From Pseudodesulfovibrio sp. (GTDB taxonomy: Bacteria; Desulfobacterota; Desulfovibrionia; Desulfovibrionales; Desulfovibrionaceae): 64,000 nt of DNA. Positions within the stretch are counted from its first letter, which is position 1. Every line of letters begins with the position of its first letter. Made by a program: the position numbers and the translations under genes. Location of the stretch: assembly GCF_028692895.1 (NCBI RefSeq), contig NZ_JAQUWN010000013.1:1-64000 (forward strand), in the 5' to 3' direction. Shown here in pieces: positions 59,049 through 63,131 of this stretch. The notes under the pieces are model-generated. The model was not told the origin of the DNA and did not search any database. It worked only from the letters and a program-made list of their open reading frames with translations.

Positions 59049-60353
59049 ATGCAGTATACCACGCAGATGGACGCGGCCCGGAAAGGGATCGTCACCCCCC
59101 AGATGGAGGCGGTGGCCCGCAAGGAGAACATGCCCGTCGCAACGCTGATGGAGCGCATGGCCAAAGGCACGGTGATCATCCCGGCCAACAAGAACCACAA
59201 GAACCTCGACCCCGAGGGCGTGGGCGAGGGGATGCGCATCAAAATCAACGTCAACCTCGGCATCTCCAAGGATTGCTGCAACCTGGACGCGGAGCTGGAA
59301 AAGGTCCAGGCCGCCCTGGACATGAAGGCCGAGGCCATCATGGACCTGAGCTGCTACGGCAAGACCCGCGAGTTTCGCCAGCGGCTGGTGGCCATGTCCC
59401 CGGCCATGATCGGCACCGTGCCCATCTATGACGCCGTGGGCTTCTACGACAAGAACCTCCAGGACATCACGGCCGACGAGTTCTTCGACGTGGTGCGCAA
59501 GCATGTGGAGGACGGCGTGGACTTCCTGACCATCCACGCTGGCCTCAACCGGCACGCGGCCGAGAAGGTCAAGCTGGGCGGCCGGATCACCAACATCGTC
59601 TCGCGCGGCGGCTCCCTGCTCTTCACCTGGATGGAGATCAACAAGAAGGAAAACCCGTTTTACGAGCATTTCGACCGGCTGCTGGACATCTGCGAGGAGT
59701 ACGACGTGACCCTGAGCCTGGGCGACGGCTGCCGTCCCGGCTGCCTGCACGACGCTACCGACGCCTGCCAGGTGGAGGAGCTGGTCAACCTGGGCGAGCT
59801 GACCAAGCGCGCCTGGGCGCGCAACGTCCAGGTCATGATCGAGGGGCCGGGGCACATGTCCATGAACGAGATTGCGGGCAACATGATGATGGAGAAGCGG
59901 CTGTGCCACAACGCGCCGTTCTACGTCCTCGGCCCGCTGGTCACGGACGTGGCCCCCGGTTACGACCACATCACCTCGGCCATCGGCGGGGCCATCGCGG
60001 GCGCGGCGGGCGCGGATTTCCTGTGCTACGTCACCCCGGCCGAGCACCTGCGGCTGCCCACCCTGGAGGACATGAAGGAGGGCATTGTGGCCACGCGCAT
60101 CGCGGCCCACGCGGCGGACATCGCCAAGGGCTACCCCGGCGCGCGCGACTGGGACGACGACATGGCCCGGGCCCGCGCGGCCCTGGACTGGGACGCCCAG
60201 TTCAAGCTGGCCATGGACCCGGTCAAGCCAGTGGCCTACCGCGAGTCCTCCAAGCCGGAGCACAGCGACTCCTGCACCATGTGCGGCAAGATGTGCGCCG
60301 TGCGCAACATGAACCGCGTCCTGGAGGGCAAGGACATCCAGCTCGACGACTAG
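59049..60353 (+). CDS. thiC: HMP-phosphate synthase ThiC
   Basis: A 434-residue radical SAM enzyme that rearranges AIR to hydroxymethylpyrimidine phosphate. This is the short form without the N-terminal extension of proteobacterial ThiC. The C-terminal cluster motif is SCTMCGKMC (C-x2-C-x3-C), one residue shorter than the common C-x2-C-x4-C but typical of short-form ThiC as far as I recall. It ends the operon, followed by a terminator. Confidence 0.94.
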
Positions 60354-60432: not shown

Positions 60433-60951
60433 TCACAGGCCGGGCGCGCCGCCCTGGCAGAAGGGACATTTGCGCTGGAATACGTCAGTCCCGTTGGCTT
60501 TGTACCGCTTGCGGCACTTGAGGCATTCCAGCTCATATGCCAGGGCGTTGTGGTCGGTTCCGCTTTCTCCGGTTGCCCCGTGGTTCAACTGGTTGTTTCG
60601 GTTGATGTATCCGGCGCGGGTGGTCCGTCCTTCGCCCGTGCGGTAGCGGCTGGCCTTGGTGAAGAGCCGCCGGTCCTGGCGCACCGGGATGTTCTGCGAG
60701 TCCAGTTGGAAACCGTTGGCCTCCATGATCTGGCGGATCATGTGTCCGATCATCTGCTTGACGCGGTCGGGCCGCACGTCGTCGCCGAAGCTTTCCACGA
60801 GGACGCGCGCCACCGCCTCGGCGGCGGGCTTGCCCAGGTCGACAGCCGTCTCCATGCGGATGACGTTTTCCCTGTCGCAGAGAAACGCCCACAGCCGTTT
60901 TCCCAGGGGCGTCCCCGCGATGTCCGCAAATTTCCAGGCTTGATACTCCAT
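60433..60951 (-). CDS. Hypothetical protein with C-terminal zinc ribbon
   Basis: A 172-residue protein, starting MEYQAWKFADIAGTPLGKRL. The helical N-terminal two-thirds have no motif I recognise. The C-terminus is a zinc ribbon, CLKCRKRYK then CPFCQGG, as in transcription- or ribosome-associated small proteins. The start at 60951 has only a weak GAG site. The promoter side contains five ATAMCCKGT-like motifs. It is convergent with thiC. The function is unknown. Confidence 0.72.
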   Translation of the reverse strand: MEYQAWKFADIAGTPLGKRLWAFLCDRENVIRMETAVDLGKPAAEAVARVLVESFGDDVRPDRVKQMIGHMIRQIMEANGFQLDSQNIPVRQDRRLFTKASRYRTGEGRTTRAGYINRNNQLNHGATGESGTDHNALAYELECLKCRKRYKANGTDVFQRKCPFCQGGAPGL

Positions 60952-60964
60952 CGTTTTTTTCTCA

Positions 60965-61041
60965 TATACCGGTTTAATATAACCTGTCATAACCGGCACG
61001 GATGTGAGTGTCAATGCTTTAACAGGTATTATTATACCTGT
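60965..61041. promoter_or_regulatory. Cluster of repeated ATAMCCKGT motifs
   Basis: Five related elements lie in 77 bases: TATACCGGT (60965), TATAACCTGT (60978), CATAACCGGC (60988) in one orientation, then an inverted ACAGGTAT (61022-61029) facing ATACCTGT (61034-61041), forming an eight-base palindrome. The cluster ends 14 bases before the 60951 gene start and looks like an operator array. Confidence 0.5.
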
Positions 61042-61159
61042 CTAAAATGCGAGTAAGCTAATGTGGCATGGCGTGGATGGTGTCCGGTGAAGCGGCCGTA
61101 TGCTGCGGGTGGGGTTTCGAGAAACGGCGGATGGCGCGCCAGGAGGCAGCGGATGAGGT

Positions 61160-61270
61160 GCCGAGGATGCGGCGAATGATGTGCCGAGGTGCGGCGGGTG
61201 GATTGCCGAGGTGCGGCGGGTGGATTGCCGAGGTGCGGCGGGTGGAGTGCCGAGGTGCGGCGGGTGGGGT
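61160..61270. repeat. 22-bp tandem repeat (minisatellite), four copies plus a degenerate one
   Basis: The unit GCCGAGGTGCGGCGGGTGGA plus two variable bases recurs at 61183, 61205, 61227 and 61249 with exactly 22-base spacing; a degenerate 23-base copy starts at 61160. Being 22 bases, it is not a codon multiple. Open frames across it are arginine/histidine/proline-rich and have no support. There are no spacers, so it is not CRISPR. Confidence 0.85.
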
Positions 61271-61299
61271 GTTGTGTCTGGGCCGATTCGGGGAGGCGG

Positions 61300-62367
61300 T
61301 CAGCGCTTGCGGCCGCAGACCGCGAATACCGGGTCGCTGACGCCGCGCGTCTCCAGGAAGCGGGGATCGTCACGGTCGCGCCAGTCGTTGCGGATGCTGA
61401 CGGTCCGGGCGTCGCGGTCCAGCCCGGCGCGGTGCAGGTATTCCAGGACTAGGCCCATTCGTTCGAAGGCGTGCAGGTCGGTCCAGCCGTGGATGACCTG
61501 GGCGGGGTCCCAGCGGTCTGTGAAGAAGACGGCCACCGGAGCGCCGGACGGCAGACGGTCGGCCACTGTGCGGAGCAGGGCGTCGGGCTCGGCGGCGTAT
61601 TCCAGGACCTGGACGGCTGCGGCCGCCTCGAAGTCCCCGGACGGGACAGGCCCGCAGGGGGAGACGTCGAGCACGCGTATGCCGGGCTGGAGGAAGCGGG
61701 CGCGCAAGGCGGCGATGTTCTCCCGAGCCCTGGCGTCCGGCGCGGGAGGGGCCGGGGGCGCGTCGTCCGCGCACTGGCGGTCAAAGAAGCCGGGCAGGAA
61801 GAAGTCGGTCGGTCGGCCCTCGTGCCGGGCCTGCATGCCCGGTCCCCAGTCGCAGGTGGCCTCGCGCCAGTGGGTGATGGAGCCGTAGGTCCCGACGTCC
61901 CGCTTTTCCAGGTACTGGATGCGCGCCTCGAAGGTGACGGGGATCAGGGCCAGGGGGTGGTTCAGGTCGGCTGTGAACCCGTCGGCCGCGAGCTCGGTGA
62001 GGCGGAAGGGCGTCAGGGTGTCGGGATAGACGTCGAGCAGGCCGTCGATGTGCCCCTGGGGATAGAACCGGCCCACGCGCGGGACGATGGGCTCGGCGCG
62101 GATGGTCTTCTTGCGCAGCCGGTCCATGGGCAGGCGGAGGACCTTGCTCTCGCGGAAGCGGGGAATGCACAGCCTCGGCTCGTAGGTCAGGGTGACGGAT
62201 TCGCCCGCCGTCTTGCCTTCCAGGGCCTCGCGCATGCCGCGCGGAAAGATGTCGTTGACCGGGTTGAACCGCCGTCCGATGAACCGCTCCTCGTGGCGCG
62301 CGCCGTTCTTCTCCCAGGTGACGGAGAACTCCAGGGCGCCGATGGTGTCGTTGCCGAAGCGAAGCAT
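61300..62367 (-). CDS. FKBP-like/methyltransferase-like fusion protein
   Basis: A 355-residue protein. The first 100 residues (NDTIGALEFSVTWEKNGARH, DIFPRGMREALEGKTAGESV) resemble SlyD/FKBP-type peptidyl-prolyl isomerases. A middle region of unclear type (THWREATCDWGPGMQA) follows, then a C-terminal part with a degenerate SAM motif I, IRVLDVSPCGPVPSG, and VLEYAAEPDALLRTVADRLP resembling type-11 methyltransferases. The glycine-rich loop is poor, so activity is doubtful. The start at 62367 is approximate and no strong ribosome site is seen. It is 20 bases after the solute-binding gene and probably in its operon. Confidence 0.7.
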   Translation of the reverse strand: MLRFGNDTIGALEFSVTWEKNGARHEERFIGRRFNPVNDIFPRGMREALEGKTAGESVTLTYEPRLCIPRFRESKVLRLPMDRLRKKTIRAEPIVPRVGRFYPQGHIDGLLDVYPDTLTPFRLTELAADGFTADLNHPLALIPVTFEARIQYLEKRDVGTYGSITHWREATCDWGPGMQARHEGRPTDFFLPGFFDRQCADDAPPAPPAPDARARENIAALRARFLQPGIRVLDVSPCGPVPSGDFEAAAAVQVLEYAAEPDALLRTVADRLPSGAPVAVFFTDRWDPAQVIHGWTDLHAFERMGLVLEYLHRAGLDRDARTVSIRNDWRDRDDPRFLETRGVSDPVFAVCGRKR

Positions 62368-62387: not shown

Positions 62388-63131
62388 CTAGTAGAGGGTC
62401 ATGTCCGGGCAGGCGTATCCCCACTTGGTGTAGATGGGCTGGAGCCTCCCTTCCCTAAAGAGGCGGAGCATGCCTTCCTCGTACATCTTTTTGATTCGCT
62501 GCGCCCTCAGGGTGGAGCTGAAGAGGGGAAAGTAGGCCCGGCGTCCCACCTGCCGGGTCGTGAATTCGCTTTCTACATAAGGAATGGTGTTTTCGCCGAG
62601 GGCTTCCCGGATCAGGGCGAGGTCGTCCACGTAGAAGTCCGCGCGGTCCAGCAGGATCATGGACACGGCCTGGGCGCCGGTCATCATCTCGCGGAGATTG
62701 ACCGGGACGGGGAAATTGGCGGACGAGTAGTAGCCGGGCTGGACCAGAATCTCCTTTCCCCACAGGCTTTGCAACCCCTTCCAACGGCCGATGCGCTTTT
62801 TGTTGAAAAAGGCGTAGAAGTCGTTGCTGTACAGGGGGTAGCGGGCCAGCACCAGCGGGGGGCGGACCACGTCGTCGCAGGTCATCATGTCGGTCGCGCC
62901 CGCCTTGACCAGTTCCACGGCCCGTGCGGAGGTGGCGTATTCGTGGCGGACGGTGACGTGGTAGAGGGCGAAGACCTCGCGCAGGACCTCGTGATAGAGG
63001 CCTGTGCCGTCCTGGTTGGTGAAGGTGTCCCAGGCCGGACTGGTGGTGATGACTTCCGCAATATCCGCCGCCGATGCCGCCGAGGGGAGCAGCAACAGCA
63101 GAACAATAGGATACCATTGGCGAAATCTCAT
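62388..63131 (-). CDS. Family-3 extracellular solute-binding protein
   Basis: A 247-residue secreted protein with a signal peptide (WYPIVLLLLLPSAASA). The mature part (AEVITTSPAWDTFTNQDGTGLYHEVL, GATDMMTCDD, LDRADFYVDDLALIREAL) has the SBP_bac_3 type II periplasmic binding fold; with no adjacent permease it may feed a distant ABC transporter or act as a sensor input. AAAGGACATCCG precedes the ATG. Confidence 0.85.
   Translation of the reverse strand: MRFRQWYPIVLLLLLPSAASAADIAEVITTSPAWDTFTNQDGTGLYHEVLREVFALYHVTVRHEYATSARAVELVKAGATDMMTCDDVVRPPLVLARYPLYSNDFYAFFNKKRIGRWKGLQSLWGKEILVQPGYYSSANFPVPVNLREMMTGAQAVSMILLDRADFYVDDLALIREALGENTIPYVESEFTTRQVGRRAYFPLFSSTLRAQRIKKMYEEGMLRLFREGRLQPIYTKWGYACPDMTLY

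Follow-up and report, generated by a model that had tools for sequence, protein, structure and literature searches.

The protein encoded at this locus has counterparts in the class I SAM methyltransferases, in pseudoenzymes and in SlyD of Thermus thermophilus (PDB 3cgm, 4od series). The sheet of class I methyltransferases has the strand order 3-2-1-4-5-7-6. Inactive methyltransferase subunits are also known, and these regulate active partners. Pseudoenzymes have mostly been recognised by lost catalytic residues. SlyD combines an FKBP fold with an insert-in-flap domain, and for its mutants remaining activities of 21% (Y63A), 35% (F128A), 92% (Y13F) and 78% (D23A) are given in one report (PMC5034536). 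A fusion of a SlyD-like FKBP with a methyltransferase was not described in open-licence literature among the matches listed, and literature on inactive enzymes and methyltransferases held nothing on such a fusion family among the matches listed.

The gene lies on the minus strand of the window, i.e. the whole stretch of 64,000 nucleotides that was analysed. Its features and immediate context are as follows.

61303..62367, minus strand: short form of the family, SlyD-like FKBP plus truncated methyltransferase, 355 amino acids (ATG at 62367, stop codon at 61300-61302)
61897..62367, minus strand: SlyD-like FKBP domain with insert-in-flap domain, residues 1-157 (GRFYPQG, DLNHPLA)
61738..61896, minus strand: family-specific linker, residues 158-210 (GPGMQA ... 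PTDFF), common to short and long forms
61303..61737, minus strand: truncated class I methyltransferase half, residues 211-355 (equivalents of beta1, beta4, beta5, beta6 and beta7)
61627..61665, minus strand: deletion scar, residues ~235-247 (VSPCGPVPSGDFE), where long forms have ~42 further residues
61507..61509, minus strand: Asp287, conserved in 20/20 short forms; Phe in 24/25 aligned long forms
62388..63131, minus strand: SBP_bac_3-like solute-binding protein, 20 bp upstream of the short gene, context only
59049..60353, plus strand: thiC, convergent to the short gene, context only

The short gene is present as a single copy in its own genome (3.69 Mb assembly searched), and no signal peptide was seen in the short form when judged by eye. 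With the single sequence as query, no significant match was obtained in Pfam (best E 0.05), in NCBIfam (best an FKBP-type PPIase, E 0.09) or in a sequence search of the PDB (best E 0.89). The Lipase_GDSL_2 match behind the Pfam value was discarded as chance. Both halves become visible only via relatives. A profile of 45 family members reached Thermus SlyD with E 3e-8 over profile positions 43-157, and the same profile reached methyltransferases with E 2e-8 over positions 218-329. Pfam Methyltransf_12 was matched by 25/25 long members (see below) at E <= 0.01 and by 18/20 short members at E <= 0.1, a threshold that the window's own copy misses. These matches, together with the alignment to long forms, establish shared ancestry of the C-terminal half with class I SAM methyltransferases. 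The long fusion itself is caught by family libraries as a generic methyltransferase only (table of the first member).

AlphaFold models of both forms have high scores (pLDDT 95.1 and pTM 0.93 for the short form, 95.5 and 0.93 for the long form). The short N-terminal half aligned with Thermus SlyD in Foldseek (E 2e-9, TM 0.61 on the target, rmsd 6.2), and a second structure comparison with SlyD gave Z 8.4 and rmsd 3.3 over 150 aligned residues. Foldseek, the Z score and the family profile thus agree on an FKBP fold with an insert-in-flap domain, yet Pfam FKBP_C misses the window ORF while matching two other places in the same genome. The C-terminal half of the long form aligned with class I methyltransferases (UbiG, MitM, NTMT1, Hvo_0019) over the whole domain with Z 13.0-14.4; class I matches listed in all ranged over Z 12.5-14.4, and Hvo_0019 gave Z 14.4 with rmsd 3.3 over 190 aligned residues. 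The C-terminal half of the short form resembled methyltransferases weakly, with Z 6.2-7.6 among the matches listed, a range in which a match may reflect a common arrangement only. The short-form model differs in that beta2 and beta3 are absent: two strands (long-form residues 255-260 and 272-277) and a helix within long-form residues 255-277 are missing, and the full seven-stranded Rossmann-like sheet is not formed in the predicted model. Given the class I strand order, the deletion would take out a sheet edge as a whole. The original prediction, a SlyD/FKBP-type sequence joined to a methyltransferase-like domain in one chain, is therefore confirmed by the family profile and by the predicted structure. 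It had named a single known fold, or an unrelated FKBP part, as outcomes that would speak against it; the model does not reduce to a single known fold, and the kinship with SlyD rules out the second.

A match was found in 61/98 related genomes, nearly all of them carrying one of two forms (fragments only in G056, G068 and G084). The short form has ~355 amino acids, and the match spans its whole length at 49-66% identity. The long form has ~400-405 amino acids, and the match splits in two around extra residues located where a methyltransferase binds SAM (VLDLMSS..SHLP...VTGLGMNxEEMxANP...VHDLN). Among the 36 genomes of the genus, the short form occurs in 20, the long form in 17, both in 5 and neither in 4. 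Twelve of the 17 long forms were aligned; those of G005, G008, G015, G029 and G030 were counted from a broken match plus an open frame. In a search of 288 genomes of the family, a short-type match was found in 0/252 genomes outside the genus, where G056, G098 and G307 gave short weak matches only. A pattern scan of a genome collection yielded 238 encoding loci. The best 80 of 238 were retained, and these provided 79 ORFs of >= 300 amino acids, 3 short and 76 long, with the LDLM motif in 76/76 long ORFs. The three short loci (L068-L070) duplicate exactly the short forms of three same-genus genomes already counted, so that the number of short-bearing genomes is 20 and not 23. The long form occurs in sulfate reducers, Thiobacillus, Thiocapsa and others, and the hosts recorded for the loci also include Thermodesulfobacteriota, Parabeggiatoa and a Chlorobiota bin. 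The layout had been thought undescribed; this agrees with the literature among the matches listed, but the architecture is widespread in genomes. It is a real fusion, and the short form is a real pseudo-enzyme candidate.

The ancestry of the two forms was derived from a tree of 90 rows (48 sequences, 3 short loci and every second long locus; 83 rows different). All short forms fall in a single clade with support 100/100, which is joined at 100/100 with six long rows of the same genus and the same family. The stem branch of the short clade measures 0.58 changes per site. Since the complete fold is present in long forms and these occupy all other branches of the tree, the short state is interpreted as derived by deletion. 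The computation shows that the 400-amino-acid long family is ancestral to the short form, and that the SAM-binding segment disappeared in a single lineage within the genus.

The extent of the deletion was read from an alignment (A1) of 45 of 48 sequences, comprising 20 short and 25 long forms, from which L035, L040 and L048 were excluded. Between two conserved positions 13-14 residues are found in 20/20 short forms versus 53-56 in 25/25 aligned long forms. The ~42 residues gone at the scar comprise beta2 and beta3 with the helix between them, as well as the loop that follows motif I; short forms also lack a few columns in the linker. The segment that would hold the Gly-rich motif I and the acidic residue after beta2 is deleted in 20/20 short forms. 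The SAM motif had been called degraded from the window alone. This proved real and goes further, the whole region having been deleted. Long forms also lack a canonical Gly-rich motif I and carry an LDLMSS...SHLP-type sequence instead (residues 236-250 of L071). Loss of SAM binding in the short form is thus suggested by the predicted fold, the long-form motif I itself being atypical. The long fusion L071 of Salidesulfovibrio brasiliensis illustrates the relationship. It shares the domain order, the linker GPGMQA..., the HEFER stretch and 44% identity with the short form, whereas LDLMSS...SHLP, beta2, beta3 and NRWFP are retained by L071 and absent from the short form. Apart from the deletion, only two positions separate the forms nearly absolutely. 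Position 84 is Leu in 19/20 short forms versus Phe in 25/25 long forms. The equivalent of position 287 falls in the long-form NRWFP stretch, after beta5, and its Phe is also found in 55/55 long forms of alignment A4, in a set that partly overlaps with that of A1 (A4 and A5 cover 55 of 76 long ORFs).

The FKBP half was compared residue by residue with Thermus SlyD, with 20 short and 77 long sequences aligned to this reference. SlyD Tyr13 is replaced by Phe in 20/20 short and 55/77 long forms, Tyr63 by Ile in 19/20 short forms and by Val, Ile or Leu in 66/77 long forms, and Phe128 by Ile in 18/20 short forms and by Leu, Val or Ile in 75/77 long forms. The window copy keeps Phe128, as Phe146. Asp23 is not retained and is Arg in the window copy, in a stretch where the alignment is uncertain owing to nearby insertions. 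The active-site set Tyr13, Asp23, Tyr63 and Phe128 is therefore not conserved as a whole. The insert-in-flap residue Tyr92 is conserved in 20/20 short and 73/77 long forms, and His119 is kept in 20/20 short and 75/77 long forms. The NHPLA motif is likewise shared with SlyD. The window protein differs from Thermus SlyD in its replaced Tyr63 and Asp23, in an insertion of ~8 residues following GRFY in the insert-in-flap stretch and in its C-terminal methyltransferase half. With active-site residues replaced and the Tyr92 and His119 equivalents kept, isomerase chemistry is probably weakened in the whole family, with the insert-in-flap domain retained.

The reading that best accommodates these data, at a probability of roughly 0.65, is that the short form is a conserved pseudo-methyltransferase that serves to bind other proteins or as a scaffold. 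From the computed deletion, ancestry, constraint and predicted fold, we infer that SAM is no longer bound and that the protein has a binding role. In one lineage the segment with the post-motif I loop, beta2, the helix and beta3, which carries the part of the Rossmann sheet that binds SAM, has been lost, Asp stands in place of Phe after beta5, and the remainder is under purifying selection. The remaining sheet 1-4-5-7-6 could not accommodate SAM as class I enzymes do, and no methylation would take place. The FKBP half, with Tyr63 and Asp23 replaced, would be a poor prolyl isomerase that has kept its insert-in-flap binding surface. Most likely, then, the protein, presumably cytoplasmic, leaves its target unmodified and holds, escorts or sequesters it, the target being either the client of the ancestral enzyme or a partner protein; a client would be bound via the SlyD-like and the residual methyltransferase surfaces. 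The original prediction had offered a chaperone-guided modification enzyme or a pseudo-enzyme. The pseudo-enzyme is supported; a modification enzyme does not suit the window copy, whose model is devoid of beta2, beta3 and the helix, and suits the long relatives, which retain the whole methyltransferase fold. The short form is a conserved protein without the catalytic motif of its family, and it shares with pseudoenzymes in general a lost catalytic motif, a single clade and purifying selection. It differs from them in the loss of a structural module, not of single residues by point changes alone, and in its SlyD-like fusion. Here a cofactor-binding module has been removed in one lineage with the rest conserved. 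The five genomes with long and gutted forms offer a natural pair for methyltransferase capability without the cofactor site.

These same five genomes have to be considered for a second reading, in which the inactive short copy activates or inhibits the active long paralogue, and common descent would indeed allow mixed dimers. However, no long form was detected in 15/20 short-bearing genomes, and the short form therefore cannot depend on a long paralogue. The two forms moreover tend toward exclusion (5 genomes with both, 15 with short only, 12 with long only, 4 with neither; Fisher p 0.006, a value that ignores kinship). Regulation of the long paralogue is accordingly considered unlikely; a regulatory role with a different methyltransferase as partner may exist.

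Gene neighbourhoods were mapped after removal of overlapping ORFs. The two commonest initial 'neighbours' were dropped, being mostly antisense shadow ORFs. The thiC gene lies within four genes of the short gene, convergent to it, in 15/16 mapped short-bearing loci. The region downstream of thiC, retrieved for 11 of the 16 short-less genomes, holds no short gene in any of these, and in 6 of those 11 the genes further out on the glycosyltransferase side keep their order. No functional link to thiC and its neighbours was drawn, because these convergent syntenic genes stay in place in genomes without the short gene. The adjacent solute-binding protein noted in the window is present (SBP_bac_3, weak, E 0.03), but it is no conserved partner: by coordinates it adjoins the short gene in G000 and G023 only, 2/20 short-bearing genomes, and it was dropped as a candidate. 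Matches to it, weak ones included, occur in 35/36 genomes of the genus.

A small divergent gene (e.g. L055:9511-10284) is found 5' of the short gene on the other strand in 14/20 short-bearing genomes, at <= 1.1 kb in 13 of them and at 2.7 kb in one. Its frames encode 213-258 amino acids, and the products scanned gave no Pfam or NCBIfam match. The first ~110 residues recur in longer frames of 353 to 5152 amino acids in 33/36 genomes of the genus, and form the start of all seven longer proteins examined. Both longer proteins that were scanned have RTX repeats, one of them also cadherin-like and Ig-like domains, and by eye the end of the small protein resembles the ends of the longer ones. The small gene may encode a mini-adhesin or a cut-down anchoring module. 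It has been considered whether the short form is a SlyD-like escort for a secreted protein, either this small adhesin-module protein or the giant RTX-type proteins that share its N-terminal module. The association is suggestive: the small gene lies within 2.8 kb in 14 of the short-bearing genomes, whereas 0/16 genomes lacking the short form have a match in an open frame of < 300 amino acids (Fisher p 1e-5, a value that ignores kinship). Longer-frame matches are also more numerous in short-bearing genomes (mean 2.55 versus 1.06 in the others). However, these longer-frame matches occur in 13/16 genomes without the short form as well, both counts are confounded by kinship, and divergent genes need not be partners. 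The small gene is missing from the window's genome and from 5 other short-bearing genomes. In the window its place is occupied by the solute-binding gene, and the two proteins were found to be unrelated on comparison. An escort role in secretion is hence regarded as improbable. A more specific version, in which excision of the cofactor-binding sheet edge turned the enzyme into a non-catalytic handler, a dedicated cytoplasmic chaperone escorting RTX-adhesin-type proteins to type I secretion, is quite improbable.

The residues that survived the deletion bear on the proposal that the short form has remained an active methyltransferase whose unorthodox SAM site is supplied in part, for instance, by another subunit or the FKBP half. 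Glu256 and Tyr257, the Glu-Tyr pair after beta4, as well as W295, F301, E302, R303 and G305, are kept in at least 44/45 short and long forms, and one source (PMC10211241) indicates that in some pseudoenzymes the catalytic residues may have shifted to other positions. All 20 short forms nevertheless lack the segment with beta2 and beta3, and the Phe found at position 287 in nearly all aligned long forms is Asp in the short ones. Retained activity of this kind is very doubtful.

The conserved pseudo-methyltransferase is further characterised by the constraint acting on it. For short forms the median dN/dS was 0.15 in the FKBP half, 0.21 in the linker and 0.21 in the truncated methyltransferase half, values that rest on unsaturated pairs only (110, 131 and 127 of 190, respectively) and for which dS is rough, most pairs being close to saturation at synonymous positions (median pS 0.68-0.70). 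The highest single-pair values were 0.38, 0.99 and 0.70 for the FKBP half, linker and truncated half. In seven close pairs the truncated half showed dN of 0.036-0.166 versus dS of 0.32-2.46. Five long forms of the same lineage gave medians of 0.26, 0.31 and 0.26 for FKBP half, linker and methyltransferase half; as the medians of short and long forms are similar, selective constraint on the truncated half is comparable to that on its intact counterpart. A decaying pseudogene, to which the large internal deletion and the long stem branch could point, can practically be dismissed, because the truncated half is constrained, internal stops within the match are found in none of the 20 short-bearing genomes and mean column identity among the 20 short sequences is 75%.

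The long fusion, found in many sulfur-cycling bacteria, is itself a candidate for an uncharacterised enzyme, in which the chaperone-type domain may present the substrate. One or more of photolyase, SDR-DUF2867, TudS-DUF1722 (RudS) and lipocalin are encoded near the long gene at 25/96 long loci, which include near-duplicates. This is a raw count over flanks of up to ~5 kb (L071-L147, L031-L050), for a gene set chosen after the clusters had been seen and with one representative of each. It hints at a light-stress role of the ancestral long enzyme. One long-form gene (L175:902-2101) carries a single in-frame TGA in the insert-in-flap stretch and is otherwise open over the aligned part; selenocysteine, a sequencing error or decay may account for it.

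Returning to the window, a 193-amino-acid orphan ORF lies between thiC and the short gene (60433-61014, minus strand). By eye it has a four-Cys zinc-ribbon-like motif at its C-terminus, and among the 36 genomes of the genus searched it has matches in its own genome only. Just 3' of the short gene, at 61158-61271, a G-rich tandem repeat is present with a unit of 22 bp in 5.1 copies.
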